A stretch of DNA of 64,000 bases. Origin: Liolophura sinensis. Lineage: Eukaryota; Mollusca; Polyplacophora; Chitonida; Chitonidae. Under the pieces are notes generated by a model. The model searched no databases. It was not told the origin of the DNA and was given only the letters and a program-made list of their open reading frames with translations. Position 1 is the first letter of the stretch; every line of letters starts with the position of its first letter. Positions 3,130-62,860 of the stretch are shown piece after piece. The position numbers and the translations under genes were made by a program. The DNA lies in NCBI RefSeq assembly GCF_032854445.1, contig NC_088300.1, positions 81,334,101 to 81,398,100 on the forward strand. Direction: 5' to 3'.

Positions 3130-3175
3130 ATGCTGTCAACTATGTTCGCTGTGCTATCCCTGCTCATTCTGGCGG
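3130..3175 (+). CDS. SOD-repeat gene exon 1: signal peptide
   Basis: The ATG has A at -3. It opens 15 codons of mostly hydrophobic residues (MLSTMFAVLSLLILA) followed by one base of a split codon and a strong donor, G|GTAAG. This is a textbook secretory signal peptide on its own exon. The phase (1) matches the acceptor at 10542, giving Val16. The start is chosen because it is the only ATG that gives a signal peptide in frame with exon 2. Confidence 0.8.
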
Positions 3176-9100: not shown

Positions 9101-12100
9101 ACTCTGTAATGTAGGCACTACTGAGGAGTCTACTCTGTAATGTAGGCACTGCTGTGGAGTCTACTCTTTAATGTAGGCATTATTTAGGAGTCTACTCTGT
9201 AATGTAGGCATTGCTGAGGAGTCAACTCTGTAATGTAGGCACTACTGAGGAGTCTACTCTGTAAAATAGGCACTACTGAGGGATCTACTCTGTAGTGTAG
9301 TCACTACTGAGGGGTCTACTCTGTAATGTAGTCACTACTAAAGAGTCGACTCTGTAATGTAGTCACTACTGAGGAGTCAACTCTGTAATGTAGTCACTAC
9401 TGAGAATTCTTCTCTGTAATATAGTCACTACTGAAAAGTCTACTCTGTAGTCACTATTGAGAAGTGTACTCTATAAATGTAGGCACAACTGAGAAGTCGA
9501 CTCTGTAATGTAGTCACTACTCAGAAGTGTACTCTGTATAAATGTCACTACTGAGGAGTCTACTCTGTAATGTAGTCACTATTGGGAAGTGCACTCTGTA
9601 TAAATGTAGGCAAAACTGAGAAGTCTAATGACAAACAAACTATATCAGACAAACTGTATCTTATGCTTTTGACAGAAAGACAATGGTTGAACATGTGTAT
9701 ATCTGGACTATAGTTTGCTATCTTCCACTGAGGATGGTTGTGACAGACAGACAGTGGTTGAACATGTGTATAACTGGACTATAGTTTGTTATCTTCCACT
9801 GAGGATGGTTGTGACAGACAAACAGTGGTTGAACATGTGTATATCTGGACTATAGTTTATCTTCCACTGAGGATGGTTGTGACAAACAGACTAACAATGG
9901 TTGAACATGTGTATATCTGGACTATAGTTTGTTATCTTCCACTGAGGATGGTTGTGACAGACCAATCCAGTCTGGATTAATAGTGGAGCTAAAGTTTTGT
10001 GTTTATCTCTCAGTCCACTCTGGATTATTAGTGGAGCTAAAGTTTTGTTTGTTTATCTTTTAGTTGAGTCTGGATCAGCAGTGGAGCTAAATTTTTATGC
10101 GTATCTTTCAGTCCATATCAGCAGTGGAGCAAAAGTTTTGTGTTTATCTCTCAGTTGAGTCTGGATCAGCAGTGGAACTAAAGTTTTATGTGTTTATCTT
10201 TCAGTTGAGTCTGGATTATCAGCGGAGCTAAAGTTTTTTTTGTTTATCTTTCAGTTGAATCTGGATCAGCAGTGGAGCTAAAGTTTTATGCGTATCTTTC
10301 AGTCCATATCAGCAGTGGAGCAAAAGTTTTGTGTGTTTATCTCTCATTTGAGTCTGGATCAGCAGTGGAGCTAAAGTTTTGTGTTTATCTTTCAGTTGAA
10401 TCTGGATCAGCAGTGGAACTAAAGTTTTGTGTTTATCTTTCAGTTGAGTCTGGATTATCAGTGGAGCTAAATTTTTGTGTTTATCTTTCAGTTGAGTCTG
10501 GATCAGCAGTGGAGCTAAAGTTTTATGTGTTTATCTTTCAGTTGAGTCTGGATCAGCAGTGGAGCTAAAGGCACAGATTTTTATGGCGGGATTACAGGGT
10601 GATGTCCTTTTCTCCCAGAGTAACCTTGGTGGCCCCATAGAGGTCATATTTGACTTGAAGGGCTTGCCTGCTGGGAAGACATATAACTGGAGTATACGAG
10701 AGTTTCCTGTGAACTATGATGTGGCAGATCGCTGCAGCGAGACAGCTATTGGTCAAAGGTACATCAACAAACATGCTTGTCTTCATCAGCTCTTACTTTG
10801 TAGTGTTCACGTCAGCAGAGCAACATTGGAAACTACGATCTATCACTCAAGTTGATAAAGTTTTAAATACAGTACTTGATAATTCATAAAGTTTCCCTCG
10901 CATTTGTATGTCACTGACTGAAACACTCATTTGTATGTCACTGATTGAAACATTCATTTGTATGTCACTGACTGAAACACTCATTTGTATGTCACTGACT
11001 GAAACACTCATTTGTATGTCACTGACTGAAACACTCATTTGTATGTCACTGACTCAAACACTCATTTGTATGTCACTGATTGAAACACTCATTTGTATGT
11101 CACTGATTGAAACACTCATTTGTATGTCACTGATTGAAACACTGATTTGTATGTCACTGACTCAAACACTCATTTGTATGTCACTGACTCAAACACTCAT
11201 TTGTATGTCACTGACTGAAACACTCATTTGTATGTCACTGACTGAAACACTCATTTGTATGTCACTGACTGAAACACTTATTTGGATGTCACTGACTGAA
11301 ACACTGATTTGTATGTCACTGATTGAAACACTGATTTGTATGTCACTGATTGAAACACTGATTTGTATGTCACTGACTGAAACACTGATTTGTATGTCGC
11401 TGATTGAAACACTCATTTGTATATCACTGACTGAAACTCATTTGTATGTCACTGACTGAAACTCATTTGTATGTCACTGATTGAAACACTGATTTGTATA
11501 TCACTGACTGAAACTCATTTGTATGTCACTGACTGAAATGCTCATTTGTATGTCGATGACTGAAACACTCATTTGTATGTCACTGATTGAAACACTCATT
11601 TGTATGTCACTGATTGAAACACTCATTTGTATGTCGCTGACTGAAACACTCATTTGTATATCACTGACTGAAACACTGATTTGTATGTCACTGACTCAAA
11701 CACTCATTTGTATGTCACTGACTGAATCGCTCATTTGTATGTCGCTGACTGAAACACTCATTTGTATGTCACTGACTCAAACACTCATTTGTATGTCACT
11801 GACTGAAACACTCATTTGTATGTCACTGACTCAAACACTCATTTGTATGTCACTGATTGAAACACTCATTTGTATGTCACTGACTGAAACACTGATTTGT
11901 ATGTTGCTGACTGAAACACTCATTTGTATATCACTGACTGAAACACTGATTTGTATGTCACTGATTGAAACACTTATTTGTATGTCGCTGAGTCAAACAC
12001 TCATTTGTATGTCACTGACTGAAACACTCATTTGTATGTCACTGACTGAAACACTCATTTGTATGTCACTGACTGAAACACTCATTTGTATGTCACTGAC

Positions 12101-15100
12101 TGAAATGCTCATTTGTATGTCGATGACTGAAACACTCATTTGTATGTCACTGACTGAAACACTGATTTGTATGTTGCTGACTGAAACACTCATTTGTATG
12201 TCACTGACTGAAACACTAATTGTATGTCACTGACTGAAACACTCATTTGTATGTCACTGACTGAAATGATCATTTGTATGTCACTGACTGTATGTCATTT
12301 GTATTTACAATAATGAACTATTTTGAATTTGGTACCAAAATTAGACTTAAAGCTATGACATAAAAGATATGTCAGGTGAACAAATGGTATTGCTGGTTAT
12401 ATCAGGAAAGCTTTCCCTATATTAGGCTGATCAGATGAGACTATGGCACTAAGTAGTGTAGTGAGGAAGTGGTATTGGTGATAATATTAGGAAAGCTTTC
12501 CCTGTATTGGGGTGATCAGATGAGACAAGGGTACTAAGTAGTGTAGTGAGGAAGTGGTATTGGGGATTATATCAGGAATGCTTTCCCTGTATTGGGGTGA
12601 TCAGATGAGACAAGGGCACTAAGTAGTATGGTAAGGAAGTGGTATTGGTGATTATATCAGGAATGCTTTCCCTGTATTGGGGTGATCAGATGAGACAAGG
12701 GCACTAAGTAGTATGGTGAGGAAGTGGTATTGGTGATTATATCAGGAATGCTTTCCCTGTATTGGGGTGATCAGATGAGACAAGGGCACTAAGTAGTATG
12801 GTAAGGAAGTGGTATTGGTGATTATATCAGGAATGCTTTCCTTGTATTGGGGTGATCAGATGAGACAAGGGCACTAAGTAGTATGGTGAGGAAGTGGTAT
12901 TGGTGATTATATCAGGAAAGCTTTCCCTGTATTGGGGTGATCAGATGAGACAAGGGCACTAAGTAGTATGGTAAGGAAGTGGTATTGGTGATTATATCAG
13001 GAAAGCTTTCCCTGTATTGGGGTGATCAGATGAGACAAGGGCACTAAGTAGTATGGTAAGGAAGTGGTATTGGTGATTATATCAGGAAAGCTTTCCCTGT
13101 ATTGGGGTGATCAGATGAGACAAGGGCACTAAGTAGTATGGTAAGGAAGTGGTATTGGTGGTTATATCAGGAAAGCTTTCCCTATATTAGGCTGATCAGA
13201 TGAGACAAGGGCACTAAGTAGTGTAGTGAGGAAGTGGTATTGGTGGTTATATCAGGAAAGCTTTCCCTGTATTGGGGTGATCAGATGAGACAAAGGCACT
13301 AAGTAGTATGGTAAGGAAGTGGTATTGGTGGTTATATCAGGAAAGCTTTCCCTGTATTGGGGTGATCAGATGAGACAAGGGCACTAAGTAGTGTAGTGAG
13401 GAAGTGGTATTGGTGATTATATGAGGAATGCTTTCCCTGTATTGGGGTGATCAGATGAGACAAGGGCACTAAGTAGTATGGTGAGGAAGTGGTATTGGTG
13501 GTTATATCAGGAAAGCTTTCCCTGTATTGGGGTGATCAGATGAGACAAGGGCACTAAGTAGTGTAGTGAGGAAGTGGTATTGGTGATTATATCAGGAATG
13601 CTTTCCCTGTATTGGGGTGATCAGATCAGACAAGGGCACTAAGTAGTATGGTAAGGAAGCGGTATTGGTGGTTATATCAGGAAAGCTTTCCCTGTATTGG
13701 GGTGATCAGATGAGACAAGGGCACTAAGTAGTATGGTGAGGAAGTGGTATTGGTGGTTATATCAGGAAAGCTTTCCCTGTATTGGGGTGATCAGATGAGA
13801 CAAGGGCACTAAGTAGTGTAGTGAGGAAATGGTATTGGTGGTTATATCAGGAAAGCTTTCCCTGTATTGGGGTGATCAGATGAGACAAGGGCACTAAGTA
13901 GTATGGTGAGGAAGTGGTATTGGTGATTATATCAGGAAAGCTTTCCCTGTAATTGGGTGATCAGACGACTGCGGCACTAAGTAGTAGTCTTTCTTGTTTT
14001 CAGTATACATGATCATATTTCTGGGACTGTCACTAACACAACCCAGGTCACAAATATATCTATCCCTAATGCTGGAGTTGATCTCAATGGAACATCTAGT
14101 CTTCTAGGTAAGTAGCTTTAATATTCACACGCATTTGTACATGTAATTGCTTTTCTGAAAGATGTATGGGAAGATGTAAAACAGTGTAGGACATGCACTG
14201 GAGAAATGAGTCCTGTTCCTTGTGTGTGAGGCAAACACGTCGCTGTAGACTTCAGTGTAGGACATGCACTGGCGAAATGAGTCCTGTGGAGTTGCTTGTG
14301 TGTGAGGCAAACACGTAGCTGTAGTCTTCAGTGAAATGATTAATCTGGTAAGTAGACAAGAAATTCAGTGAAAAATTCTTAAAGAATCAAACTTGTGCTG
14401 ATTTTTATTTTTATGATCGAAAAATTGTCATTATATTTATGCATTTCAGGCAGGTCCATTCTTCTGAAGGACCAAGAGGAGCTTTTAGAATCGGCCTGTG
14501 CCAGCATTCTCCCCTTGCATACTCTGACCACAGCCATTGCTCGCTTCCAGTCTGAGATAGCTGGCACAGTCCTGCTTCGCCAGCCGACAAACATGGATGA
14601 TGCTGAGACAATGGTGGTCACAGACCTCTTCTATGTTAATGACATGACCGAGGTTGGAATGTACAACTGGAAAATCATGACTAACTCGGCTGACAATAGT
14701 GCTCTGGGACCAAATGTTTGTGAAAATTTAGGAACAATTTTCAACCCTGCTGGAGCTGTGGAAGGGGTTGATTGTCAAGCCGGTAACCACTTTAATTGCT
14801 CTGTAGGTGATCTAACAGCAAAGCTCGGGAAAGTGAGCGTTGGCGCTGAAATGTCAGGAGCCAGGCATTTAACATCTGATGCTAATCTACCACTGACAGG
14901 TGGGCAGAGTATTGCAGACAAAGCCTTGGCGCTTCTCGATGCCAATGGGGCTATTATCACTTGTGCCAACATCAAGGCGTTCCAAACAAAGATGGCCACA
15001 GCATTTTTCAGCATGGATGGTATCCAGGGCAACCTTAAGTTTGTTCAAGATTCGCCCTATGACCCTACCCTTGTCCAGGTTAACCTCTTTGGTCTGAAAA

Positions 15101-18100
15101 GTAAAGCTGGAGGTTATCATGTCCACGACTTTCCAGTTCCACAACGGATAAGCAAAGATGACAAAGTCTGCAGTGGTGACTCAGTCAGTGGTCACTGGAA
15201 CCCATTCATGTGGGTCAAGGCCACTAGCCCAGCAGAAGGCAGTGGGACAAGTGACCAGTACGAGGTGGGTGACCTGAGCGGGAAGTATGGACTCTTGACT
15301 GGTTTGTCACAACTCCAAACTAACTACACAGATTGGAACCTGCCCCTGTTTGGGAAAAATAGCATTATTGGTAGATCCATTGTAATTCATAGAAGTTCTG
15401 ATGGAAGCCGTTGGGTCTGCTCGAATATTGTAGGCTCGTCAATGCTGCGAACTGCAGTTGCAACCTTTAAATACCCAGTAATTGGCAGTATGTATTTCCA
15501 GCAACCTGCCGATGACCCCATGGCAGACACGAGTATTTTCCTGAAGCTGAACTACGGTGATGGAAGTTTCGAAACAGTTGGTCACAATTGGCACATCCAT
15601 GTGGATCCCATTGGGGATGATTTTGATGCCGACATTTCGTTGAGGTGTAAAAGTGCCAAGGGACATTACAATCCATTCCATGTTTATCTAGAAGGTAACT
15701 ATTCCAGCTCTTGTAGACCAGATAATGGCATGCGATGTGAAGTGGGCGACTTAGCAAACAAACATGGAAAACTGGCAATTAGGACGCCGGAAGGAATGGG
15801 AATGAAATATTTCTTCACGGACACTACTCTTCCATTATCTGGACCTAACAGTATCATTGGCCGCTCAGTTGTGATACACGGGAGAGACTCTGGTGACTCG
15901 AGAATGTCGTGTGCTAATATTTACCATATGACAATGATGAATGCAGAAGTGACAGAATGGTCATCCAGTGAGGTCACAGGGTCAATGAAGTTCCACCAGG
16001 CGCCCATGTGTGACCACTCCATGCTGATGGTGGATGTGACTGGACTGGGTCACATAGCAGGAGGGTACCATGTACATGAACTGCCAACTCTGAAGGGTGC
16101 TCAGAATCCATGTTCAGGGGCCAGCGTAGCTGGACACTATAATCCATTTCATGTCAACATTTCAGTGAGCCCCGCTCCTGGAAATGGAACCCTGGATAAG
16201 TATGAAGTTGGGGACTTGAGTGGCAAACACGGCCGAGTCACGGGTCTACAAGGGCTGAAGGAAACATTCATGGACAACAATCTGATGCTGTACGGCACTC
16301 GAAGTGTCGTGGGGCGGTCGATTGTCATTCACAAAGAGGAGAAGAATGCCCGATGGATCTGTGGAAACATACTGCCAACCACTGGGGCATCTGACAGAAC
16401 TTACAGGGCAAAAGCTACCTTTAAAGGAACTGTTCAAGGATTCATTATGCTGGTAAGTACTTGTGTGATATGTACGTTTACAGGGGCATAGATACTTTGG
16501 TCATGTTGGTAAGCACTTGTTTGATATGTACAGAGGCATAGATATTTTGATCATGTTGGGAAGTACTGGTGTGATATGTACAGAGGCATAGATACTTTGG
16601 TCATGTTGGTAAGTACTTGTGTGATATGTACAGAGGCGTAGATACTTTGGTCATGTTGAGAAGTACTTGTGTGATATGTTTTAGAGGCATAGATATTTTG
16701 ATCATGTTGGGAAGTACTGGTGTGATATGTACAGAGGCATAAATACTTTTGTCATGTTGGTAAGTACTTGTGTGATATGTACAGAGGCGTAGATACTTTG
16801 GTCATGTTGAGAAGTACTTGTGTGATATGTTTTAGAGGTATAGATACTTTGGTCATGTTGGGAAGTGCTAGTGTGATGTGTACAGAGGCGTAGATACTTT
16901 GGTCATGTTGAGAAGTACTAATGTGATATGTACAGAGGCGTAGATACTTTGGTCATGTTGGTCAGCACTTGTGTGATATGTTTTAGAGGTATAGATACTT
17001 TGGTCATGTTGGGAAGTACTGGTGTGATATGTACAGAGGTGTAGATACTTTGGTCATGTTGAGAAGTACTTGTGTGATATGTTTTAGAGGTATAGATACT
17101 TTGGTCATGTTGGGAAGTGCTAGTGTGATATGTAGAGAGGCGTAGATACTTTGGTTATGTTGAAGTACTTGTGTGATATGTACAGAGGCGTAGATACTTT
17201 GGTCATGTTGAGAAGTACTTGTGTGATATGTACAGAGGCGTAGATACTTTGGTCATGTTGGGAAGTACTGGTGTGATATGTACAGAGGCGTAGATACTTT
17301 GGTCATGTTGAGAAGTATTTGTGTGATATGTACAGAGGCGTAGATACTTTGGTCATGTTGAGAAGTACTTGTATGACATGTTTTAGAGGTATAGATACTT
17401 TGGTCATGTTGGTAAGTACTGGTGTGATATGTACAGATGCATAGATACTTTGGTCATGTTGAAGTACTTGTGTGATATGTTTTAGAGGTATAGATACTTT
17501 GGTCATGTTGGTCAGTACTAGTGTGATATGTACAGAGGCGTAGATACTTTGGTCATATTGAAGTACTTGTGTGATATGTTTTAGAGGTATAGATACTTTG
17601 GTCATGTTGGTCAGTACTAGTGTGATATGTACAGAGGCGTAGATACTTTGGTCATATTGAAGTACTTGTGTGATATGTTTTAGAGGTATAGATACTTTGG
17701 TCATGTTGGTAAGTACTGGTGTGATATGTACAGAGGCGTAGATATTTTGGTCATGTTGAGAAGTACTTGTGTGATATGTTTTAGAGGTATAGATACTTTG
17801 GTCATGTTGAAGTACTGGTGTGATATGTACCTATGCATAGATACTTTGGCCATGTTGAGAAGTACTTGTGTGATATGTTTTAGAGGTATAGATACTTTGG
17901 TCATGTTGGTCAGTACTAATGTGATATGCACAGAGGAGTAGATACTTTGGTCATGTTGGGAAGTAGTTGTGTGATATATTTTAGAGGTATAGATACTTTG
18001 GTCATGTTGGGAAGTACTTGTGTGATATGATTTAGAGGCGTAGATACTTTGGCCATGTTGAGAAGTACTTGTGTGATATGTTTTAGAGGCGTAGATACTT

Positions 18101-21100
18101 TGGTCATGTTGGTCAGTACTAATGTGATATGCACAGAGGAGTAGATACTTTGGTCATGTTGGGAAGTAGTTGTGTGATATGTTTTAGAGGTATAGATACT
18201 TTGGTCATGTTGAAGTACTTGTGTGATATGTACAGAGGCGTAGATACTTTGGTCATGTTGGGAAGTAGTTGTGTGATATCAGCAGAGGTGTAGATACTTT
18301 AGGTGTGTTAGTCAGTACTTGTGTGATATGTACAGAAGCATAGATACTTCAACACACTCTTGAAATGTGTTCTACGCTAGATGTACTGTATTGGGGGTAA
18401 GTTTCACTGTAGCAAATACAAAACTTGGATTGACTTATGTAGGAATAGCGTTACTGTATTTTAGGTCATTTACCAATAGAATGAATTGAAGAAAAAGCTT
18501 TTGGGTATTTTCACAGCTTTACAAATGTCTGTTAACTGATCAGTGCTAGCTGTAATATATTTCAGAGATGTCTGCCCGTGTAAAACTTGAATAAGCTCAT
18601 CATTGGGGGCACGTAAAGTGGCAGCATGCCCTCTAGTTAACAGCTGCCACCTGGTGCATATGATCTGTGAGGATGGATGTAAATGAAGGGCAGGGCTGTG
18701 GGGGAAGTCTGGGTAAAGCAAGACCATATTTGGATATTTGTGATTCCGCTTTTAGGTACAAAGCCTGAGTTTTCAGCATGACCATATGATTATTGAACTG
18801 TACATTCCTTTGAGACAAAAAAGAAAATTGAAATATTGAATGTTTTGGTGTTCTTGTATACTCCTCCAACGGTTAGGCATGTGTGAGCGTATCTGAGTGG
18901 GGCCAGTATTGTGGATTACAGTATTGTAGATTACAGTATTGTAGATTACAGCTCAAATATAAACATACAGCAGAATGAGTGGCTCTGCTTTACCTGCTGG
19001 GTGCTGCCTGATAACAGGATTAACATCAAAGTTGTTATATACGTGCGCATTCAAGCCCGATAGCTATCCTATGATCTGGAGTTGATGATGCCATATGTCC
19101 ATGCGCCATGTGAAGTTTTGATTAATGTGGAGAAGACAGTGTAATCCTCTGCCAGGATTGCATAAAATGTACTGTTGATTGAGTGAAAAGGGATGATGGA
19201 TGACGTTAAGACTCTTTGAACATACTGTGCAGGCCTTCTTTTGTATTTATGACCAGGAATGTGATTATGACACCCTTGTACCAGACACTGAGTGTGATTT
19301 GCACACCGATTGATACTCTCAATACCCTGATGTGAAGTGTGGTTTTAATTCACCTAGATCTTGTTACAGGAGTGTGCCGCTGTGTGGATATGTGATAACA
19401 TGCTTCAAGCTGGGAAGCCTGCATATCTCACCTAAAAATTTAAACAGTGTTGAATGGGCTAAGACTAATTTTAAACATTTAATTTCTACAACCTTTTCAT
19501 GGGTCAATGAATTTTCTTTTATTTTATACATGTCTCCTGGGAAGCTTTGATAGATGTATATGTCTCAGCAGGGCGTTTGTGATCATCCCCCCAGTGGTCT
19601 GTATGACATGTAGCCTGTGTTTGTGTCTGAAGTCTACATATTTATATACATACTTTCATTCCTTCCTTCCTTCCCATCTCAAACAGTGGACACCCAAGTT
19701 TTCAAGAGATTAGTGAGGTTTCCATGGTAACAGCATGTGGTCTTTTTAACAGTGAAGTGACATTTTGTTGGAGGTGATCATGAAGATAACAACTTTGTGT
19801 GGGTGTGTGTGTGTGTGTGTGTGTGTCTGAGTGCATGTGTGTGTTTGTCTGTGTGTGTCTGTGTGAGTGTGTGATTATCTGTGTGTCTGTGAGTGAGTGT
19901 GTGTCTGTGTGAGTGTGAGTGTGTGTGTGAGTGTGAGTGTCTGTGTGTGTCTTTGTGAGTGAGTGAGTGTGTGTGTTTGTAACACAGCCCCTGCAGGGCA
20001 GGACTACCCTCAAACTTTTTTTTAGTCCCCAACCATACTAAGATTACATTATCTACGCATTACCTATTTATCAGGCAGTTGATCAAGGTGCTTTGTTGGA
20101 AGATGGATGTTATATGTATTTTGTTACAATGAAAGAGGCTATGTACTGCACACCATTTTCTTTGTAGTGATGAGTTGTACCACTGTGCACTTCTCATTCA
20201 TAACTAGGCAAATCTTTTAAATGTTTTCTCAAGAGTTAATATAATAATAATAGTAATAATGTACTTATTTACGTGGCTCGGTCAGTTTGCAGTGAAACTG
20301 TTCTTCCCCCATGGCAAGAGAAAACAATATTTAGGAAATATATACTTCAGAGTGCAATCCAAAAAAATACATCAATATATATCAAACAAGATACAGCACG
20401 TACATGTGGTTGGAAAGGTGAACTTAGATACATTCATAAATGTACATACAAAAAGGCAACAGCAACAACAACAAAACAAGCAATAGTGCTGTCCCCACAA
20501 ATGTCCCAACTAGCGGGAGAAACAGGGTAGTAGGAGGTGGCCCATTACCGCCCCCCCCCCCCCCTCCCTCTGCCTGTCTGGTATATAAGTGAAACAAGGA
20601 TGCATTCAGAGATGAAGTGAGGGCCTCCATGTACATAGACAGTGTATGTAAGTAAAACAAGGATGCATTCAGAGATGAAGTGATGTACACAGACAGTGTA
20701 TGTAAGTGAAACAAGGATGCATTCAGAGATGAAGTGAGGGCCTCCATGTACATAGACAGTGTATGTAAGTAAAACAAGGATGCATTCAGAGATGAAGTGA
20801 TGTACACAGACAGTGTATGTAAGTGAAACAAGGATGCATTCAGAGATGAAGTGAGGGCCTCCATGTACATAGACAGTGTATGTAAGTAAAACAAGGATGC
20901 ATTCAGAGATGAAGTGATGTACACAGACAGTGTATGTAAGTAAAACAAGGATGCAGTCAGAGATGAAGTGAGGGCCGCCATGTACACAGACAGTGTATGT
21001 AAGTAAAACAAGGATGCATTCAGAGATGAAGTGATGTACACAGACAGTGTATGTAAGTAAAACAAGGATGCATTGAGAGATGGAGTTATGTACACAGACA

Positions 21101-38570: not shown

Positions 38571-38584
38571 ACTGTAGTCAAATG

Positions 38585-42611: not shown

Positions 42612-42868
42612 TCAGATTGACGTAGCTGATGTATCCACGGTACTGGACAGTACAATGTAGTACTGTACCACAGGAACTTACAAATACACAAACAATATGT
42701 CAGATTGACGTAGCTGATACATCCATGGTACTGGACAGTATAATGTAGTACTGTACCACAGGAACTTACAAATACACAACAGTATGTCAGATTGACGTAG
42801 CTGATGCATCCATGGTACTGGACAGTACAATATAGTACTGTACCACAGGAACTTACACATACACAACT
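42612..42868. repeat. ~87-bp repeat, 3 copies (intergenic)
   Basis: The unit begins GTCAGATTGACGTAGCTGAT and contains the hairpin ACAGTAC-AATGTA-GTACTGT, then CACAGGAACTTACAAATACA. Confidence 0.92.
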
Positions 42869-43289
42869 GTCCTCTGACTGTGTAATTGTTCACAAACTGC
42901 AGCAAACACAACCAATGGTTTGTACAAAATAATATGCCTATATATTTCATAAATGTACACATTACATAAAAATATTTGACAGATATCACATATTTACCCA
43001 GGGAAAATATTGTTTGTTTACTCTCGTTTAATACCTATAATATTGTTACATACCAAAGTATACGGTTATAATGAAAACCCACACAGAGCATGCTTCTCTA
43101 CATATAAATGAACCAAACTACAACACATGAATCTTTTATCATTGTCAGTGACCTCTAACTGCTAACCCTACACTATTTCTGACTGCTACCATCATGATCT
43201 CCCCAAATGACCCAGGCTGTTGTCACATTCAACTCCTGAACCAAACTACAACACACAAATCTTTTATCTGTCAGTGACCTCTAACTGCT
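42869..43289. other. intergenic segment with a two-copy ~78-bp duplication
   Basis: Two copies of a unit beginning CCAAACTACAACACA lie at about 43111 and 43242. They share CAGTGACCTCTAACTGCTA and lead into the next array. An ATTAAA on the - strand (43027-43032) could be the polyadenylation signal of the SFI1-like gene; this is weak. Confidence 0.5.
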
Positions 43290-46272: not shown

Positions 46273-46296
46273 TCAACGATCGTCAAACTTCCCGCA

Positions 46297-46407
46297 CTAT
46301 CCAGGCTGTTGTAACTTCATCAGCTCTTGCACTCTTCTAACTAGGAGTTCACACTGAGGTTTGTCTTTGCTGATTTCTTTCTTCAGGATTGATATCTCCT
46401 CAGTAAT
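46297..46407 (-). CDS. SFI1-like in-window exon 10: C-terminus and stop
   Basis: It has acceptor TTGGCACAG and 37 codons in phase 0 ending TAG. The peptide ITEEISILKKEISKDKPQCE, LLVRRVQELMKLQQPG is a heptad-like coiled coil. It corresponds in position and character to the end of SFI1 proteins. The stop is about 25 bases from the 24-bp array. Confidence 0.85.
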   Translation of the reverse strand: MTEEISILKKEISKDKPQCELLVRRVQELMKLQQPG

Positions 46408-52400: not shown

Positions 52401-55400
52401 ATGTGCATGTTGTCAGGACATGTATTTAATTCAGAGCAGAAAAAAAATTGAAAACAAATAAGTAAGGTGTTTATGGACACAGTTTTCAATAGTCATTCTA
52501 CTCCTGCTTTCCTCTTATTTACGTTTTCCTTCCTTTTAAACTGCCACATATCAATACAACCTCTGCAATATAGATTTTGATGAATTATATTGTGCCAAGA
52601 TTTACAAGTGCAAGTTTTGTAAGAGGACAAAAGAGGCGAAACAACCATGAATGGGTTCCACAGTTACAGTCAGTTCTCTAGCCATAGAGGCTACAACTCA
52701 CCTCTCTGACTCTGCCTGCACACTGCCCTCAGGTATAGCCTTGAATCTCTGGCCTATTACTGGGGAGAGCGACAAGACTGGGGCCGTGGGGATGATCCTT
52801 GATCTGGGTGGGTCATGTGACTCTCGAGGTATCTGTGAGCTCATTTGTTGGGATGTTTTTCTCCTTGCCACTGTAAGTTTCCAGCGTAAAGCAAACTTCT
52901 GGACGAGCTGGTAAGTGTCGTAGGCAGACTGTAGCATACAGTTATAGTGAGCAATAAACAAGTTCTGAAATGTTCAATAACAGAAGTAGAATGCCGACAA
53001 ACGCAAAGCACTGTGCGCAATTAGCTCAAAGTATCATGATACAAGCATTAGATGTAAGTTTGGTTTGTAATCCATGGTGTGGTGAAACAGATCTGTGGTC
53101 TATGGTGTGGTGTAATAGATCTGTGGTTGATGGTGTGGTGAAATATAACCTATGTTGTGGTGAAATGCAGGTATAACCTATGGTGTGGTGAAATGAATGT
53201 AAAACCTATGGTGTTGTGAAATAGATGTTTAACTTATGTTGGTGAAATGGCGGTATACCCTATGGTATGGTGAAATAGAGGTATAACCCATGGTGTGGTG
53301 AAATGGAGGTATAACCTATGATGTGGTGAAACAGATGTTTAACCTATGTTGTGGTGAAATGGAGATATAACCTATGGTGTGGTGAAATGGATGTAAAACC
53401 TATGGTGTTGGGAAATAGATGTTTAACTTATTTTGTGGTGAAATGGTGGTATACCCTATGGTATGGTGAAATAGAGGTATAACCTATGGTGTGGTGAAAT
53501 GAAGGTATAACTTATGGTGTGGTGAAATGTCAGTATAACCTATTGTGTGGTGGAATGGAGATAAAACTTATGGTGTGGTGAAACAGATGATCAACCTATG
53601 GTGTGGTATAACCTATGGTGTGGTGAAATGGAGGTATAACCTATGGTATGGTGAAATGGACGTATAACCCATGGTGTGGTGAAATGGAGGTATAACCTAT
53701 GGTGTGGTGAAATGGAGGTATAACCTATGGTGTGGTGAAATGGCAGTATAACCTATGGTATGGTGAAATGGAGTTACAGCCGATGGTATAGTGAAATGAA
53801 TGTAAAATGTATGGTATGGTGAAATGGAGGTGTAACCTACTCTGTGGTAAAATGGAGTTTCAACCTGTGGTGAAATGAAGGTATAACTTATGGTGTGGTG
53901 AAATAGCAGTATAACCTATGTTGGGGTGAAATGGAGCTATAACCTATGGTGTGGTGAAATAGCGGTATAACCTATGTTGTGGTGAAATGGAGGTATAACC
54001 TATGGTGTGGTGAAATGGAGGTATAACATATGTTGTGGTGAAATAGCAGTATAACATATGTTGTGGTGAAATGGAGGTATAACCTACATGTATGGTGCAG
54101 TGAAACTGATCTCAATACACACTATGGTGAAATAGATGTAAAAACAAGCTGTGGTAAAATGAATCTTTATATCTTCCAATGCCTGTGTCAACTGTCCTCT
54201 TACCTTTGAATGCTGTTGTGCAGCAAACTTTGCCCTGAACTGTGTCAGTTCATGAGCCACACGTAACCACTGAGTGGCACCCTCCCTCAGTAGCCTCAGT
54301 TGGCGTCTGTCTAAAGCTTCTGTATGTCGCACCTTCTTCCTTCTCCTGTTCTCAGTGTATGACCACCAGAGGATTAACACCTGAAGTCAACGTCAGAACT
54401 GTCAGGTCTTAGCTCACTGACAAGTATGCAACACCTTAACTCATGGAGACATGACAAACACCACAACTGTCATGTCTTAGCTCAATGACAGGAACGCAAT
54501 ACCTTAACTCATGGAGAGATGGCAAACACCACAACTGTCAGGTCTTAGCTCACTCACAGGTACACAACACCTTTACTCATGGAAAGATGGCAAACACTAA
54601 AACTGTCACGACTTACCTCACTCACAGGTACGGAACACTTGAACTCATGGAGAGATGGCAAACACCACAACTGTCAGGTCTTAGCTCACTGACAGGTATG
54701 CAACAACTTAACTCATGGAGAGATGGCAAACACCACAACTGTCAGGTCTTACCTGTAGCTCACTGACAGGTACGCAACATCTTAATTCATGGAGACATGG
54801 CAAACACCACAACTGTCAGGTTTAAGCTCACTGACAGGTACGCAACACCTTAACTCATGGAGATATGGCAAACACCACAACTGTCAGGTCTTACCTGTAG
54901 CTCACTGACAGGTACGCAACATCTTAACTCATGGAGATATGGCAAACACCACAACTGTCAGGTCTTACCTGTAGCTCACTGACAGGTACGCAACATCTTA
55001 ACTCATGGAGAGATGGCAAACACCACAACTGTCAGGTCTTAGCTCACTCACAGGTACACAACACCTTTACTCATGGAAAGATGGCAAACACTAAAACTGT
55101 CACGACTTACCTCACTCACAGGTACGGAACACTTGAACTCATGGAGAGATGGCAAACACCACAACTGTCAGGTCTTAGCTCACTGACAGGTATGCAACAA
55201 CTTAACTCATGGAGAGATGGCAAACACCACAACTGTCAGGTCTTACCTGTAGCTCACTGACAGGTACGCAACATCTTAATTCATGGAGACATGGCAAACA
55301 CCACAACTGTCAGGTTTAAGCTCACTGACAGGTACGCAACACCTTAACTCATGGAGATATGGCAAACACCACAACTGTCAGGTCTTACCTGTAGCTCACT

Positions 55401-58400
55401 GACAGGTACGCAACATCTTAACTCATGGAGAGATGGCAAACACCACAACTGTCAGGTCTTAGCTCACTGACAAGTATGCAATACATTAACTCATTGAGAC
55501 ATGGCAAACACCACAACTGTCAGGTCTTAGCTCACTGACAGGTACACAACACCTTAACTCATGGAGACATGGCAACCACCACAACTGTCAGGTCTTAGCT
55601 CATTGACAGGTGCACAACACTTTAACTCATGGAGAGATGGCAAACACTACAACTGTCAGGTCTTAGCTCACTCACAGGTACGCCACACCTTAACTCATTG
55701 AAATATGGCAAACACCACAACTGTCAGGTATGTAACACCTTAACTCATGGAGAGATGGCAAACACCACAACTGTCAGGCCTTAGCTCACTGACAGGTATG
55801 CAACACCTTAACTCATGGAGAGATGACAAACACCACAACTGTCAGGTCTTGCGTGTAGCTCACTGACAGGTACGCAACACCTTAACTCATGGAGAGATGG
55901 CAAACACCACAACGGTCAGGTCTTAGGTCACTGACAGGTACAACACCTTAACTCATAGAGACATGGCAAACACCACAACTGTCGGGTCTTACGTGTAGCT
56001 CACTGACAGGTACGCAACATCTTAACTCATGGAGACATGGCAAACACCACAACTGTCAGGTCCTAGCTCACTGACAGGTACGCAACACCTTAACTCATGG
56101 AGACATGGCAAACACCACAACTGTCAGGTCTTAGCTCACTCACAGGTACACAATACCTTAACTCATGGAAAGATGGCAAACACCACAACTGTCAGGTCTT
56201 AGCTCATTGACAGGTACGCAACACCTTAACTCATGGAGACATGGCAAAGACTACAACTGTCAGGTCTTAGCTCACCGACAGGTACACAATACCTTAACTC
56301 ATGGAAAGATGGCAAAGACTACAACTGTCAGGTCTTAGCTCACTGACAGGTACGCAACAACTTAACTCATGGAGAGATGGCAAACACCACAACTGTCAGG
56401 TCTTAGCTCACTGACAGGTATGCAACACCTTAACTCATGGAGACATGGCAAACACCACAACTGTCAGGTCTTAGCTCACCGACAGGTACACAATACCTTA
56501 ACTCATGGAAAGATGGCAAACACCACAACTGTCAGGTCTTAGCTCATTGACAGGTACGCAACACCTTAACTCATGGAGACATGGCAAACACCACAACTGT
56601 CAGGTCTTAGCTCATTGACAGGTACGCAACACCTTAACTCATGGCAAGATGGCAAAGACTACAACTGTCAGGCCTTAGCTCACTGACAGGTACACAATAC
56701 CTTAACTCATGGAAAGATGGCAAAGACCACAACTGTCAGGTCTTAGCTCACTGACAGGTATGCAACAACTTAACTCGTGGAGAGATGGCAAACACCACAA
56801 CTGTTAGGTCTTACCTCACTGACAGGTATGCAACACCTTAACTCATGGAGAGATGGCAAACACCACAACTGTCAGGTCTTAGCTCATTGACAGGTACGCA
56901 ACACCTTAACTCATGGAGACATGGCAAACACCACAACTGTCAGGTCTTAGCTCATTGACAGGTACGCAACACCTTAACTCATGGAGACATGGCAAACACC
57001 ACAACTGTCAGGTCTTAGATCACTGACAGGTACACAATACCTTAATTCATGGAAAGATGGCAAACACCACAACTGTCAGGTCTTAGCTCATTGACAGGTA
57101 TGCAACACCTTAACTCATGGCAAGATGGCAAAGACTACAACTGTCAGGTCTTAGCTCACCGACAGGTACACAATACCTTAACTCATGGAAAGATGGCAAA
57201 GACTACAACTGTCAGGTCTTAGCTCACTGACAGGTATGCAACAACTTAACTCATGGAGAGATGGCAAACACCACAACTGTCAGGTCTTAGCTCACTGACA
57301 GGTATGCAACACCTTAACTCATGGAGACATGGCAAACACCACAAGTGTCAGGTCTTAGCTCACCGACAGGTACACAATACCTTAACAATACAACTGTCAG
57401 GTTTTAGCTCACTGACAGGTACGCAACACCTTAACTCATGGAGACATGGCAAACACTAGAACTGTCAGGTCTTAGCTCACTCACAGGTGTGCAACACCTT
57501 AACTCATGGAGACATGGCAAACACTAGAACTGTCAGGTCTTAGCTCACTCACAGGTGTGCAACACGTTCCTCACCGAGAGATGGCAAACATCAGAACTGT
57601 CAGGTTTTAGCTCACTCACAAGTACAACACCTTAACTCATGGAGACATGGCAAACACTAGAACTGTCAGGTCTTAGCTCACTCACAGGTGTGCAACACGT
57701 TCCTCACCGAGAGATGGCAAACATCAGAATTGTCAGGTTTTAGTTCACTCACAAGTACAACACCTTAACTCATTGAGAGAAAACCAATACCTCAGTTAAC
57801 TGGCCAACATAAAGTTCATTTAATTATACAAGGTTATTTCATATTTGATTCTTGTTTAACATCTTACTCAAGATTTTTTCCACTTATACGACAGCAATCA
57901 GGTTTTGATCAAGGACCTGACAGATGTAACCAGGTGGGGCTTTAACTATCTGTAAGGCTCACTGATAGATATACATGTACCTCAGTTCATCCATATGTGG
58001 CCTATACATTAGCTGATGGAAAAGTGGCCAATATCTGGGCTGATGGAAATGTGGTCAATATCTTTATAATAATAGCCTTCATGTACATTTGTAAGCCTGG
58101 GGAAGTAAAATGTGACTCAAAATCATCCACTTTGGGATTTAATGATTCCCCTTTTTTGTTTTTTTTTCTTACTTCAGGTGTACAGTTTTGTTTGTTATCC
58201 ATATTTCTTGACAAGTACTCATCCATCATAAAGCAGTTTATAGTAAAGGCATTGTGCTACTAACCCTTCTCTGGAGAGACAGACACCAGTGCCAGAGAGC
58301 CAGGTTAGTTTTGGCCTGCTTTTCCTGGGCTTGTTCATGTTCTTGCTTCCAGCATGCAAAGTAGCGAGTCTGGGCCACCGTCTGACGAAACCACAGCGCC

Positions 58401-61400
58401 TGGCGAGCTAGCAGCTGTAACACAAAACACATCATGTCTGAGCCACCATCTGACAAAACCACAGCGTCTGACGAGCTGGCAGCTGTAACACAAAATACAT
58501 CATGCCTGAGCCACCGTCTGACGAAACCACAGCACCTGGCCAGCTAGCTGCTGTAACAGAAAAAACACATCATGTCTGAGCCACCGTCTGACCAAACAAC
58601 AGTGCCTGGCCAGCTAGCAGCTGTAACACAAAACACATCATGTCTGAGCCACCGTCTGACGAAACCACAGCACCTGGCTAGCTAGCAGCTGTAACACAAA
58701 ACACATCATGTCTGAGCCACCATCTGACAAAACCACAGTGGATGGCAAGCTAGCAACTGTAACACAAAACACGTCATTTCTGAGCCACCGTCTGATGAAA
58801 CAACAGTGCCTGGCCAGCTAGCAGCTGTAACAGAAAAAACACATCATGTCTGAGCCACTGTCTGACAAAACCACAGTGCCTGGTGAGTGAGGAGATGTAA
58901 CACAAAACACATCATGTCTGAGCCACTGTCTGACGAAACAACAGTGCCTGGCCAGCTAGCAACTGTAACACAAAACACGTCATTTCTGAGCCACCGTCTG
59001 ACGAAACCACAGTGCCTGGCCAGCTAGCTGCTGTAACAGAAAAAACACATCATGTCTGAGCCACCGTCTGACGAAACCACAGTGCCTGGCGAGCTAGCAG
59101 CTGTAACACAAAACACATCATGTCTGAGCCACCGTCTGACAAAACCACAGTGGATGGCAAGCTAGCAGCTGCAACACAAAACACATCATGTCTGAGCCAC
59201 CGTCTGATGAAACCACAGTGCCTGGCGAGCTAGCAGCTGTACCACAAAACACGTCATTTCTGAGCCACCGTCTGATGAAACAACAGCGTCTGACGAGCTG
59301 GCAGCTGTAACACAAAACACGTCATTTCTGAGCCACCGTCTGATGAAACAACAGTGTCTGGCCAGCTAGCAGCTGTAACAGAAAAAACACATCATGTCTG
59401 AGCCACCGTCTGACGAAACCACAGTGCCTGGCCAGCTAGCTGCTGTAACAGAAAAAACACATCATGTCTGAGCCACTGTCTGACCAAACAACAGTGCCTG
59501 GCCAGCTAGCAGCTGTAACACAAAACACATCATGTCTGAGCCACTGTCTGACAAAACCACAGCGTCTGACGAGTGAGGAGATGTAACACAAAACACATCA
59601 TGTCTGAGCCACTGTCTGACAAAACCACAGTGCCTGGTGAGTGAGGAGATGTAACACAAAACACATCATGTCTGAGCCACCATCTGACGGCAGATAGATT
59701 TTCGTGTATTAATTTCATCAACTTTCGCCATTATTTTAAGGTTTACTTACCTGGGAGAAAACACTGGAGAGAAACAGCATACCTCTTAATATGGCTTAAT
59801 ATTCTTAACTATGAATGTTTTCTTTGGTATGTTTATATTTTGCTGTGTATTGAATGGTCTAACACCACCACTTTTCCTACCTGACCAGGCAAGTTGCTCG
59901 TATCAGTTGCTACCGACTGTTGTTGCTACCGACTGTTGTATTACCTTCTTCCTGTAAGACAGCTGACAGAAATGCTTCCAGGCCTGGAGAGTTCTAAGCC
60001 CAACACAGTTCTGGTGATGTTGTACTGCCTGCTCGTGTTTCAGCGTCAGGATAAGAGCCTCATCCCGCGCCAGTCTCCAGTGCAGAAAGCTCCGCCGTAA
60101 TATCCCTGTTTACAAACAGATAAGAACCATGATTGATCACACATGGACATGTAAATCATGACACATGCACATGTAAATCATCACACACGTATCTGATTTG
60201 TTTGTTTAATTGGTGTTTTAGGCCGTACTCAAGAACATTTTCACATAGACGATGGCAACCAGCAGTATGGTGTGAGGAAACCGGGCATAGCCCGCGGAAA
60301 ATCCATGACCATCCGCAGGCTGCTGGCTGACAATCCCATGTACGGCCGGGGAGGAAGCCAGCATGCGACTTTAACTCACAGAGAACGCTTTGGTGAGAGG
60401 CTCCTGCGTTATTATGTTGCGCTAGCACGCTAACCAACTGAGACCCCCCCCCCCCTCCCAATCGCACACGTACATGTAAATCATGACACATGAATACGCA
60501 AATCATCACAAATACACATGCAAATCATGACACATGGACATGCAAATCACCACACATATGCATATGCAAATCGACACAGATGGTTATGTAAATTATCAGA
60601 CACATACATGTAAATCATCACACATGCACATGTCCGTGTAAATTATCACAAATGTACCTGTAAATCATCACAAACAGGCATGTAAATCATCACAAACTGG
60701 CATGTAAATCATCACACATGCACATCATCACACATGCATATGTAAATCATCACACATCCACATGTAAATCACAGGGATGAGAATGGTTATTGGAAAAAAA
60801 GTCTAAAACTATTTTATATACTGAATGAAACGAATACTGCAAGTGAGCGAATGAGCAACCTGAGTCTACATGTGGTTACCACATGTGGTTGTGGTACATG
60901 TGGTTACCATTGCAAGCCGCTGCAAAGCAGATATGCTAAAGTGCGTAAATGGTACTGGTAAAAGCTATTGACATTGTAAAATGGTCAGTATGCGTTATAT
61001 ATCTTACAACCACAGGTTGTAAGATATATATATATATCTTAACCACAGGTTGTAAGATATATAACCTGTATGAAGGATCTGATGTTAGTACATGTGTGTC
61101 AGATATATAACCTATATGGAGGGCCAGCTGTTACCTCATGTATGTAAGATATATCACCTGTATGAAGGATCTGATGTTAGCACATGCGTGTCAGATATAT
61201 AAATTGTATGGAGGGCCAGGTGTTGGCACACATATGTTAGATATATAACCTGTATGGAGGGCCAGCTGTTAGCTCATGTATGTAAGATATATAACCTGTA
61301 TGAATGGCCTGACGTTAGCGCGTGTGTCAGATACATAACCTGTATGAAGGGCCTCATATTAGTATATGTGTGTAAGATACATAACCTGTATGGAGGGCTT

Positions 61401-62860
61401 GATGTTAGCATATGTACGTAAGATATATAACCTGTATGAAGGATCTGATGTTAGCACATGTATGTTAGATATATAACCTGTATGAAGGATCTGATGTTAG
61501 CACATGTATGTTAGATATATAACCTGTATGAAGGATCTGATGTTAGCACATGTATGTTAGATATATAACCTGTATGAAGGATCTGATGTTAGCACATGTA
61601 TGTTAGATATATAACCTGTATGAAGGATCTGATGTTAGCACATGTATGTTAGATATATAACCTGTATGAAGGATCTGATGTTAGCACATGTATGTTAGAT
61701 ATATAACCTGTATGAAGGATCTGATGTTAGCACATGTATGTTAGATATATAACCTGTATGAAGCTCTTCTTGTCCTTGCATAACCAGCTGAGCCGTCTCA
61801 CTTTTCTTGTAAGCGTGGATTGCAGCAAAACGATGCCACGTCTTCAGCACCTACCATGTGAAATAGCCACAGATATCTATTATAATGTATTCACATAATT
61901 AGACAATAAAAGTGTCAAACTTCACATGTTCTCCATACCTCCATGTCCATGTGCTATATGTATACTCAGTATTTATATCCAAAGCCAAACTCTCTTCAAG
62001 CCTCAGTTCAAACCTTCTTTATACCCACACCTGCCATACTCAAGAATATTTCACTTATACGACGGCGGCCAGCATTATGGTGGGTGGAAACTGGGCACAG
62101 CCCAAAGGAAAGCCACGACCATCCGCAGGTTGCTGACAGACCTTCCCACGTATGGCTGGAGAGGAAGCCAGCATAAGCTGAACATGAACTCACATCAACT
62201 GCATTGGTGAGAGACTCCTGGGTCATTACGTTACACTAGCGCACTAACCAACTGAGCCACGGAGGCCCCTACTGTGTGTGTTGTGATTTACATCAATTCT
62301 CTGTGACTCACTCACTGTGGTGTACATGCACCTCTGCTCTTCCTTTAACTCAACTTTGCTAAGATCCTCCTCTTGTGGTGTACCTCACTCACTGTGTGAC
62401 TCACCTTTACTGAGATTCTCCATATGTGGAGTAGCTCTCCCTTTGACCCACCTTTGCTAAGATCCTCCTGTTGGGGCGTGCCTCTGCTCGCCCTGTGACT
62501 CACCTTTTTTAAGATCATCCTGTTGTGGTGTACCTAACTCACTGTGTGACTCATCTTGACTAAGATGCTCCTATTGTGGTGTACCTAACTAACTGTGTGA
62601 CTCACCTTTACTAAGATGCTCCTCTTGTGGTGTACCTCACTCACTGTTTGACTCACCTTTACTAAGATCCTCCTGTTGTGGTGTGCCTCAGCTTTCTGTG
62701 ACTCACCTTTACTCAGATCCTCCTGTTGTGGTGTTGCTAACTCACTGTGTGACTCACCTTTACTAAGATCCTCCTATTGTGGTGTGTCTCTGCTCTCTTG
62801 TTGGCCTCTCTCTCTTGGATGTTCTCGTGGATGCGCCTACCCCATGTCTGTATTACCCAC
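46297..62860 (-). CDS. SFI1-like centrin-binding centrosomal protein, C-terminal ten exons (5' part outside window)
   Basis: Exons on the - strand in order: 62860-62758, 61850-61754, 60105-59945, 58414-58265, 54380-54204, 52964-52702, 50225-50109, 48542-47907, 47583-47472 and 46407-46297. All have GT-AG borders and matching phases; together they are 1927 bases with one open frame ending in TAG. The first six exons encode Sfi1-type helical repeats with regularly spaced tryptophans (QTWGRRIHE, KTWHRFAA, LHWRLARDE, QAWKHFCQL, LALWHWCLSL, TQWLRVAHELTQFRAKFAAQ, FALRWKLTVARR). A proline/serine-rich linker follows, then a C-terminal coiled coil (QIRDTLKQFEEKKKKL and later ITEEISILKKEIS). In the SFI1 family these repeats bind centrins along a long helix at the centriole or centrosome. 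The C-terminal coiled-coil layout resembles that of vertebrate SFI1. More repeat exons must lie past 62860, probably beyond the window. Confidence 0.9.
46630..47471 (-). repeat. splice-donor array: 100-bp unit with copies of the end of in-window exon 9, ~8 copies
   Basis: Read on the - strand, each unit contains GTGTGGAGGATCAGGGATGA then GCTTGTACAG|GTGAGTCAGAGG. This resembles the exon 9 end GTGTGGAAGATGAGG...AGAGATGAGCTTGTGCAG|GTGAGTGAGAGG. The unit nearest the exon is shorter; those from 46900 to 47300 are nearly identical. Confidence 0.93.
47472..47583 (-). CDS. SFI1-like in-window exon 9: coiled coil
   Basis: It has acceptor GACATTGTAG and donor CTTGTGCAG|GTGAGT, with 112 bases from phase 2 to phase 0. 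The peptide is VLKSQWKQLSSLIKDQRM, TDDSVEDEDTRNIRDELVQ. Its last ~40 bases and the donor are amplified downstream as a 100-bp array. Confidence 0.85.
47584..47906 (-). other. SFI1-like intron between exons 8 and 9, unique
   Basis: No array and no other feature; it is the only short array-free intron of this gene in the window. Confidence 0.6.
47907..48542 (-). CDS. SFI1-like in-window exon 8: long linker and start of coiled coil
   Basis: It has acceptor TATCCTGTAG and donor AAACTGAA|GTAAGT, with 636 bases entering and leaving in phase 2. It encodes a linker with repeated RP(T/R)VI(S/L)(S/P)EEN-like motifs (RPTVISSEENRVQQPYQLPC, RPRVILPEENSVSQLPCH), His/Pro-rich stretches, and a helical end VVQIRDTLKQFEEKKKKLK. 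If the intron is retained, translation stops at the TAA three bases into it. Confidence 0.88.
48560..50038. repeat. 52-54 bp array in two subfamilies, ~28 copies (SFI1-like intron)
   Basis: Left part (48560-49100): ATGAAAGATGTGAGCGGAAT with TGGATAACCTCACTGTACAG. Right part (49100-50038): GAGAGGAATGCTAGAGACAA then TGGATAACCTCACTGTACAG and TGGAGGAA(T/A)CAT. Both share the palindrome CACTGTACAGTG. Confidence 0.94.
50109..50225 (-). CDS. SFI1-like in-window exon 7: linker
   Basis: It has acceptor GTTACCTGCAG and donor GGATTCAG|GTTAGT, with 117 bases, phase 2 to phase 2. The peptide SSHALTLRLMRPRPRQPDFL then IDSLKREGLLTTSSGHKGF is low-complexity and basic. The acceptor plus about 70 bases of this exon are amplified upstream as a ~100-bp array (50235-52385), so the exon border is supported by phase and by the fit to neighbours rather than by uniqueness. 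Confidence 0.8.
50235..52385 (-). repeat. splice-acceptor/exon array: ~100-109 bp unit copied from in-window exon 7, ~20 copies
   Basis: On the + strand the exon reads GAGTCAATCAAGAAGTCTGG ... CTAGTCTGAGG-like ... GGGAGCTGCAG|GTAACACAG. The array repeats exactly this order (GAGTTAATCAGGGGGTCTGA, GTGTGCTAGTCTGTGAGTAG, TTTGGGAGGTAACACATAAC). The four copies nearest the exon keep CTGCAG or an equivalent AG; the distal, mutually similar copies have lost it. Confidence 0.93.
52386..52701 (-). other. SFI1-like intron, unique part next to exon 6 donor
   Basis: AT-rich, with no feature other than the intron itself. Confidence 0.5.
52702..52964 (-). CDS. SFI1-like in-window exon 6: last Sfi1 repeat and start of linker
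   Basis: It has acceptor ACATTTCAG and donor TCAGAGAG|GTGAGT, with 263 bases from phase 0 to phase 2. The first third (NLFIAHYNCMLQSAYDTYQL, VQKFALRWKLTVARRKTS) is the final Trp repeat. The rest is proline/serine-rich linker (IPRESHDPPRSRIIPTAPVL). Confidence 0.9.
53080..54130. repeat. ~28-bp minisatellite, ~37 copies (SFI1-like intron)
   Basis: The unit is ACCTATGGTGTGGTGAAATG followed by GAGGTATA, with many point variants (GCAGTATAACC, ATGTTTAACC). It does not visibly contain either neighbouring splice site. Confidence 0.95.
54204..54380 (-). CDS. SFI1-like in-window exon 5: Sfi1 repeats and helix
   Basis: It has acceptor TTGACTTCAG and donor CATTCAAAG|GTAAGA, with 59 codons in phase 0. 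The peptide includes VLILWWSYTENRRRKK, RRQLRLLREGATQWLRVAHE and LTQFRAKFAAQQHSK. The GATQWLRVA...FAAQQ stretch is the most SFI1-like segment in the window. Confidence 0.93.
54400..57785. repeat. 68-bp array, ~50 copies, 3.4 kb (SFI1-like intron)
   Basis: The unit is GGTACGCAACACCTTAACTC, ATGGAGACATGGCAAACACC, ACAACTGTCAGGTCTTAGCT, CACTGACA. A ~494-bp block is duplicated (about 54490-54770 and 54985-55265). The array begins within ~20 bases of the acceptor of in-window exon 5; AACACCT at the exon edge recalls the unit, but I cannot show that the acceptor itself is copied. Confidence 0.95.
57786..58264 (-). other. SFI1-like intron, unique part with SINE remnant
   Basis: A short stretch at about 57866-57905 (TTCCACTTATACGACAGCAA) looks like the 3' end of an inverted SINE. 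Nothing else is recognised. Confidence 0.45.
58265..58414 (-). CDS. SFI1-like in-window exon 4: two Sfi1 repeats
   Basis: It has acceptor GTGTTACAG and donor CAGAGAAGG|GTTAGT, with 50 codons in phase 0. The peptide begins LLARQALWFRQTVAQTRYFA and includes NLALWHWCLSLQRR. The acceptor and first ~48 bases are amplified upstream (58415-59700) in a 68-bp array. Confidence 0.9.
58415..59703 (-). repeat. splice-acceptor/exon array: 68-70 bp unit copied from in-window exon 4, ~18 copies
   Basis: Read on the - strand each unit is GTTACAG|CTGCTAGCTCGCCAG, GCACTGTGGTTTCGTCAGAC, GGTGGCTCAGACATGATGTG, TTTTGT. The part after the bar is the first ~48 bases of the exon. After CAGAC the copies diverge from the exon into ATGATG and rejoin the intron end. 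Most copies keep an intact TTACAG acceptor. Confidence 0.95.
59704..59944 (-). other. SFI1-like intron, unique part next to exon 3 donor
   Basis: No feature recognised. Confidence 0.5.
59945..60105 (-). CDS. SFI1-like in-window exon 3: two Sfi1 repeats
   Basis: It has acceptor TTTGTAAACAG and donor AGGAAGAAG|GTAATA, with 161 bases from phase 1 to phase 0. The peptide carries ILRRSFLHWRLARDEALILT and LRTLQAWKHFCQLSYRKK, two tryptophan repeat motifs about 33 residues apart. Confidence 0.9.
60199..60458 (-). mobile_element. tRNA-derived SINE, near full length
   Basis: In reverse orientation it ends in the tRNA-like head: GTTGGTTAGCGTGCTAGCGC as read on the - strand, preceded by a G/C run. It includes the central GGTCATGGATTTTCCGCGGG segment and the tail CGGCCTAAAACACCAATTAA. 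Two sister copies lie at 62033 and 63345. The head matches a tRNA A box. Confidence 0.85.
60460..60775. repeat. ~20-bp irregular repeat (SFI1-like intron)
   Basis: Repeats of CACATGTAAATCATCACACA with varying spacers. A few copies also precede the SINE at 60130-60190, so the SINE appears to have inserted into this repeat. Confidence 0.85.
60776..61009 (-). other. SFI1-like intron, unique segment
   Basis: It contains ACATGTGGTTACCACATGTGG-like local inverted repeats near 60870-60910. No gene. Confidence 0.5.
61010..61753 (-). repeat. splice-donor array: 46-bp unit with copies of the end of in-window exon 2, ~16 copies
   Basis: The + strand unit is AACCTGTATGAAGGATCTGA, TGTTAGCACATGTATGTTAG, ATATAT. 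Read on - it contains CTTCATACAG|GTTATATATC, the last ten bases of the exon and its donor. Copies at 61430-61750 are almost identical; those at 61010-61400 are diverged. Confidence 0.95.
61754..61850 (-). CDS. SFI1-like in-window exon 2: Sfi1 repeat
   Basis: It has acceptor ATGGTAG and donor CATACAG|GTTATA, with 97 bases from phase 0 to phase 1. The peptide VLKTWHRFAAIHAYKKSE then TAQLVMQGQEELHT has the repeat's Trp and a basic/acidic helix. The exon end CTTCATACAG and donor are amplified downstream as a 46-bp array. Confidence 0.85.
62033..62270 (-). mobile_element. tRNA-derived SINE, near full length
   Basis: It contains, as read on -, GGGGCCTCCGTGGCTCAGTT (tRNA-like A box region), then the conserved GGTCGTGGCTTTCCTTTGGG and GTCGTATAAGTGAAATATTC. 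It lies in the intron between in-window exons 1 and 2. Confidence 0.88.
62280..62757 (-). repeat. splice-donor array: ~42-51 bp unit with copies of the end of in-window exon 1, ~9 copies
   Basis: The + strand unit is GTGACTCACCTTTACTAAGA, TCCTCCTGTTGTGGTGTACC. Read on - each holds GGAGGATCTTAGTAAAG|GTGAGTC, the exon end and donor. At least six copies keep an intact GTGAGTC; one (about 62550) reads GATGAGTC and has lost it. Confidence 0.92.
62758..62860 (-). CDS. SFI1-like in-window exon 1: Sfi1 repeat
   Basis: It has acceptor CTTGTAG and donor GTAAAG|GTGAGT. It enters with the last base of a codon and leaves in phase 0. The peptide is WVIQTWGRRIHENIQERE followed by ANKRAETHHNRRILVK. The preceding exon is not found in the window. 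Its last ~20 bases and donor are repeated downstream. Confidence 0.85.

Follow-up and report, generated by a model that had tools for sequence, protein, structure and literature searches.

Do splice junctions seed the tandem arrays that run across the exon borders of two neighbouring genes, or do the arrays cover these borders as part of a general saturation of the introns with repeats? The question is raised by the stretch of DNA analysed here (the window, 64,000 bases), which, read from its genes, looks like animal nuclear DNA. It contains two convergent genes, gene A on the plus strand and gene B on the minus strand (Table 1). The exon borders of both were placed by eye, giving in-frame models with 38 splice junctions and 19 introns. 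In gene A, all 10 introns are GT..AG, the frame is kept across the 11 exons to the stop codon, and the protein matches Pfam Sod_Cu in four stretches (E 6.9e-55). Both ends of this SOD-repeat protein are hydrophobic by eye, and the hydrophobic C-terminus suggests that it is perhaps a lipid-anchored surface protein. The nine modelled introns of gene B are also GT..AG, with one open frame through to the stop codon. Its protein matched nothing in Pfam (up to E 0.1) or in the PDB (up to E 10), so “SFI1-like” remains only the label of the initial annotation. No structured RNA in the window passed the Rfam gathering thresholds, and ARAGORN called no tRNA. A SINE-like element is present in copies at 62010-62272 (minus strand), 60222-60442, 42028-42082, 63363-63453, 22560-22656 and 63810-63864; its head looks tRNA-like by eye, with no tRNA given by ARAGORN, and the element is presumably similar to one found in mollusc genomes.

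Most of the window consists of tandem arrays. From 130 TRF rows, we kept those with a period of at least 15 and a score of at least 100 and merged overlapping rows, which yielded 37 arrays covering 40,483 of the 64,000 bases (63%). Within introns they account for 34,321 of 45,971 bases (75%) and are present in 16 of 19 introns; the median intron is 323 bases long array-free versus 1566 with arrays. Eight of the 37 arrays are located outside introns, and the intergenic DNA is also array-filled. It had been claimed that the units are unrelated between introns and that the arrays look independent. Our blastn comparison (E 0.01) agrees: it detected no similarity between arrays of different introns and no common unit behind all arrays, and the only two related pairs each reside within a single intron, namely intron 7 and intron f-g. 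In the tests below, 29 TRF arrays were used in the early and edge tests, and 27 after the two related pairs had been merged. Several arrays merit separate mention. Intron 9 (33009-37103) is array in all but 70 of its 4095 bases. A 3-kb array with a 24-base unit (43280-46269) starts 27 bases past the stop codon of gene B and is perhaps in its 3' UTR. Arrays near the acceptors at 14004, 28383, 54380 and 48542 end 16-25 bases upstream without reaching the acceptor, as if a minimal acceptor signal had to stay.

Each of the 38 junctions was put to an alignment test: a core of exon plus intron sequence was aligned with the remainder of its intron and with the 18 others, in two settings (12+12 and 20+10 bases). 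Eight junctions, five donors and three acceptors, are copied into the tandem array of their own intron, seven of them clearly and the exon 4 donor marginally. The initial annotation had listed the same eight junctions, in two unrelated genes, as repeated together with exon sequence, and each scored higher in its own intron than in all other 18 introns in both settings. With 12+12 cores, the own intron against the best other intron scored 24 versus 9 for exon 2, 16 versus 14 for exon 4, 17 versus 11 for exon 8, 24 versus 11 for exon a, 20 versus 10 for exon b, 24 versus 12 for exon d, 24 versus 13 for exon g and 20 versus 10 for exon i. The thin margin of the exon 4 donor recurs with 20+10 cores (11 versus 10), and this array, with GT kept in 12 of 38 copies, is the weakest of the eight. 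Both settings let 10 of the 38 junctions pass; the extra passes (the d-e acceptor in both, the A5 acceptor with 12+12 and the d-e donor with 20+10) lead by one point each, and none has a spanning array. The exon g array is composed of two parts: 50160-50718, with a unit of 109 bases and 66 exon bases included, and 50744-52377, with a unit of about 100. Exon i (47472-47583, minus strand) is 112 bases long; its gapped alignment to an array copy takes in 82 of them, and the copy is without 17 of the exon bases. Two more junctions proposed as spanning, the exon 7 donor and the pyrimidine tract before exon 10, failed the test and were rejected. The exon 7 donor scored 9 in its own intron versus 11 elsewhere, and 7 versus 9 in the other setting, with two exon bases in the best alignment; the exon 10 acceptor scored 3 versus 10 and 1 versus 10, its best alignment stopping three bases before the exon.

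Table 1 Gene models and tandem arrays at splice junctions in the 64,000-base window.
Feature	Position	Strand	Description
Gene A, Cu/Zn-SOD-repeat protein	3130..37574	+	11 exons, 1036 aa
Gene A exons 1-4	3130-3175, 10542-10758, 14004-14107, 14450-16452	+	
Gene A exons 5-8	22738-22821, 28383-28484, 28902-29043, 31281-31407	+	
Gene A exons 9-11	32887-33008, 37104-37196, 37504-37574	+	
Gene B, “SFI1-like”	46297..62860	-	10 modelled exons a-j down to the stop codon, 641 aa in the modelled part
Gene B exons a-e	62860-62758, 61850-61754, 60105-59945, 58414-58265, 54380-54204	-	
Gene B exons f-j	52964-52702, 50225-50109, 48542-47907, 47583-47472, 46407-46297	-	
Exon 2 acceptor array	9969..10570	+	unit 48, 29 exon bases, AG kept in 11/12 copies
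Exon 4 donor array	16447..18349	+	starts at donor; unit 50, 6 exon bases (5 identical)
Exon 8 donor array	31402..32633	+	unit 55, 8 exon bases (best local alignment), GT in 20/22 copies
Exon a donor array	62344..62798	-	unit 51, 41 exon bases, GT in 7/8 copies
Exon b donor array	60996..61763	-	unit 46, 10 exon bases, GT in 15/16 copies
Exon d acceptor array	58368..59689	-	unit 68, 47 exon bases, AG in 16/19 copies
Exon g acceptor array	50160..52377	-	two related TRF arrays
Exon i donor array	46660..47492	-	unit 100, GT in 7/8 copies
Intron 7 array	29057..30850	+	two related TRF arrays; 13 bases past exon 7 donor; spanning not confirmed
Intron 9 array	33034..37058	+	TRF: 25 bases from donor, 45 from exon 10 acceptor; spanning not confirmed

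Each spanning array places copies of a splice site inside the intron. We aligned 127 copies over the eight arrays, counting in the real sites and taking exon g copies from 50156-50718 only, where AG is kept in four of four. GT or AG is kept in 92 of the 127, which indicates that the decoys are mostly tolerated, and in the eight arrays the copies agree with their unit consensus at a mean of 0.83-0.93 per base. If at least 12 of 16 core bases have to match, the introns beside the eight real sites hold 76 decoys. In seven of eight arrays, use of the nearest decoy would cause a frameshift or introduce a stop; at exon i, the nearest decoy donor would add 84 bases in frame and without a stop. Of the site copies, the one closest to the exon body is the real site in our gene models, and with it the frame is normal. 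The unbroken reading frame suggests that the proximal sites are those used, and exon definition would pick such exon-proximal sites.

The initial annotation considered the pattern not described; similar repeats are on record in lancelets. Passages of PMC3087553 report tandem repeats across exon-intron boundaries in Adh3 and globin genes and call them “mirages”, a name from earlier work on Adh3 of two lancelet species (the original Adh paper being PMC117041, as cited there). According to these passages, both boundary types can be hit, regular splicing is seemingly undisturbed, and the mechanism is unclear. Further boundary-spanning repeats, in lancelet PGBD5 and troponin C, are given in PMC3902484. 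Like the lancelet mirages (Adh3, BflGb6/BflGb9, PGBD5, troponin C), the arrays of our window are minisatellite-like copies of both boundary types, many with intact splice signals. Their units span 46-109 bases, a range comparable to the 10-72 in Adh3 and 150-160 in BflGb6 given in PMC3087553, and their copy number exceeds the 3-6 units given for BflGb6 and the repeats given for PGBD5. Unlike in the mirage reports, the arrays here involve 8 of the 38 junctions of two adjacent genes, in a setting where most introns carry arrays. The arrays fit the structural definition of mirages, in that the unit spans a boundary and the copies carry AG or GT, and the window is a real and dense example of this already described kind.

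Two other known systems were compared. Ordinary intronic minisatellites resemble our arrays in unit sizes, divergence and local independent origin, and 19 of the 27 intronic arrays here are without an exon edge; the other eight differ from them by including an exon edge and a splice site. For Conus introns, the passages of PMC3862624 speak of microsatellites and contain no boundary repeats. Intron gain by tandem genomic duplication of AGGT, in which an exonic segment becomes a new intron with matching ends (as outlined in the review PMC3443670), also involves tandem duplication of splice signals. Unlike its products, the introns of the window have dissimilar ends, and every spanning array is found at one end of an intron already present. 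Over the 19 introns, cognate ends reach a mean similarity of 7.7 (maximum 12, in intron 7) versus 8.2 (maximum 14) for ends of different introns. Donor and acceptor ends are thus not copies of one segment; we rejected this route, and the proposed link to intron gain falls with it.

We then propose a model for the origin of the arrays. They are likely mirage-type minisatellites, the outcome of frequent local tandem duplication in which copies straddling a junction are tolerated. Throughout the non-coding part of the genome, local tandem duplications would arise at a high rate, and the arrays would then grow by ordinary unequal exchange or slippage. If the first duplicated segment straddles a junction, the array would extend from the real site into the intron. 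Exon definition would pair the two exon-proximal sites and normal mRNA would still be made, so that straddling duplications may survive as neutral changes; duplications within exons would be removed.

The main alternative is that arrays arise preferentially at splice junctions, for instance because the first duplication is promoted at exon edges by breaks, R-loops or a paused polymerase, an idea partly compatible with tolerated duplication. Its weight depends on how many spanning arrays arise by chance. Our null model seeded one unit for every array at random in introns reduced to the length that they now have without arrays, with one unit added per array; exon overlap was allowed and, as a stricter condition, enough intron had to remain for a splice site. 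Because arrays saturate the introns, about half of the eight spanning arrays are expected from random seeding: 3.6 of 27 with splice-site room required (P 0.011) and 4.2-4.3 without this condition (P 0.033-0.034). The base periods of the model were hand-picked from TRF rows, and the sample is one window, chosen because the pattern had already been noticed; the P values are post hoc. Without merging, the 29 arrays give 3.5-4.6 expected (P 0.01-0.06). Arrays scoring at least 500 include 8 of 20 that span (3.0-3.5 expected, P 0.002-0.009), and those scoring at least 900 include 6 of 17 (2.5-3.0 expected, P 0.016-0.046). The excess over the null, from which it follows that seeding may not be uniform, grows for original introns of twice the length (2.1 expected, P 0.0002) and fades for those of half the length (5.4 expected, P 0.13). 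Setting aside exon 4, seven arrays at the 6-base threshold give P 0.04-0.10, and six would give P 0.11-0.23. When the TRF edges of the 29 arrays are used, the strongest result favouring birth at junctions is 14 edges within 30 bases versus 7.7 expected (P 0.0008), followed by an overlap of at least 6 bases (8 versus 4.0, P 0.019), edges within 50 bases (14 versus 9.5, P 0.021) and edges touching the junction (8 versus 4.6, P 0.055); the signal fades with an overlap of at least 10 bases (6 versus 3.6, P 0.11) or within 15 bases (9 versus 6.2, P 0.11). The excess is modest, noted after the fact and variable in strength with the settings, and arrays fill the intergenic DNA too, which speaks against junctions as special seeds. 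These comparisons lend weak support to the seeding of arrays by splice junctions as originally claimed; an extra bias towards junctions, about twofold, is possible rather than established. We regard preferred birth at junctions as a minority possibility, and we give similarly modest odds to a combined reading in which the window, with its possibly molluscan SINE-like element, is not from a lancelet, boundary-spanning minisatellites exist in a second phylum, and the twofold excess reflects a real and widespread bias in array birth.

The remaining explanations appear much less probable. Arrays might have come first and exons grown into them, the splice site having moved into a unit and the exon edge being array-derived. 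This would equally leave units common to exon edge and intron, and passages of the lancelet globin work propose that repeat copies are recruited as exons (PMC3087553). However, the end of exon 4 (ATFKGTVQGFIML) resembles by eye a SOD repeat in the interior of the gene A protein (ATFKYPVIGSMYF), so this edge is probably original coding sequence, and we consider the order of events improbable. Selection for decoy sites, for instance for slower splicing or alternative isoforms, had also been suggested, and the frequent retention of the dinucleotide, together with the in-frame decoy at exon i, could be taken in its favour. Yet conservation of the site dinucleotide (0.63-1.00) does not consistently exceed that of the other unit bases (0.82-0.92), most exon 4 decoys are broken, and nearly all nearest decoys are disruptive; such selection is very unlikely. 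An assembly artefact, in which copies were made or multiplied by misassembly, is hardly to be believed. Parts of PMC3902484 note that copy numbers differ between lancelet assemblies, yet re-sequencing backed the repeats, and one lancelet mirage was aberrantly assembled in a draft according to a passage of PMC3087553. In our window, the divergence of copies from their consensus and the intron-specific units are not expected from artefactual duplication of identical reads.

Under frequent, tolerated local duplication, the apparent link between repeats and junctions largely follows from introns that were originally short and are now saturated with repeats, and a genome-wide claim therefore needs a null model of array-free introns. 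With 76 decoys set against eight real sites, the two genes offer a dense natural test of splicing choice among near-identical sites. If the window comes from an animal other than a lancelet, mirages would extend to another lineage and would be a wider animal phenomenon.
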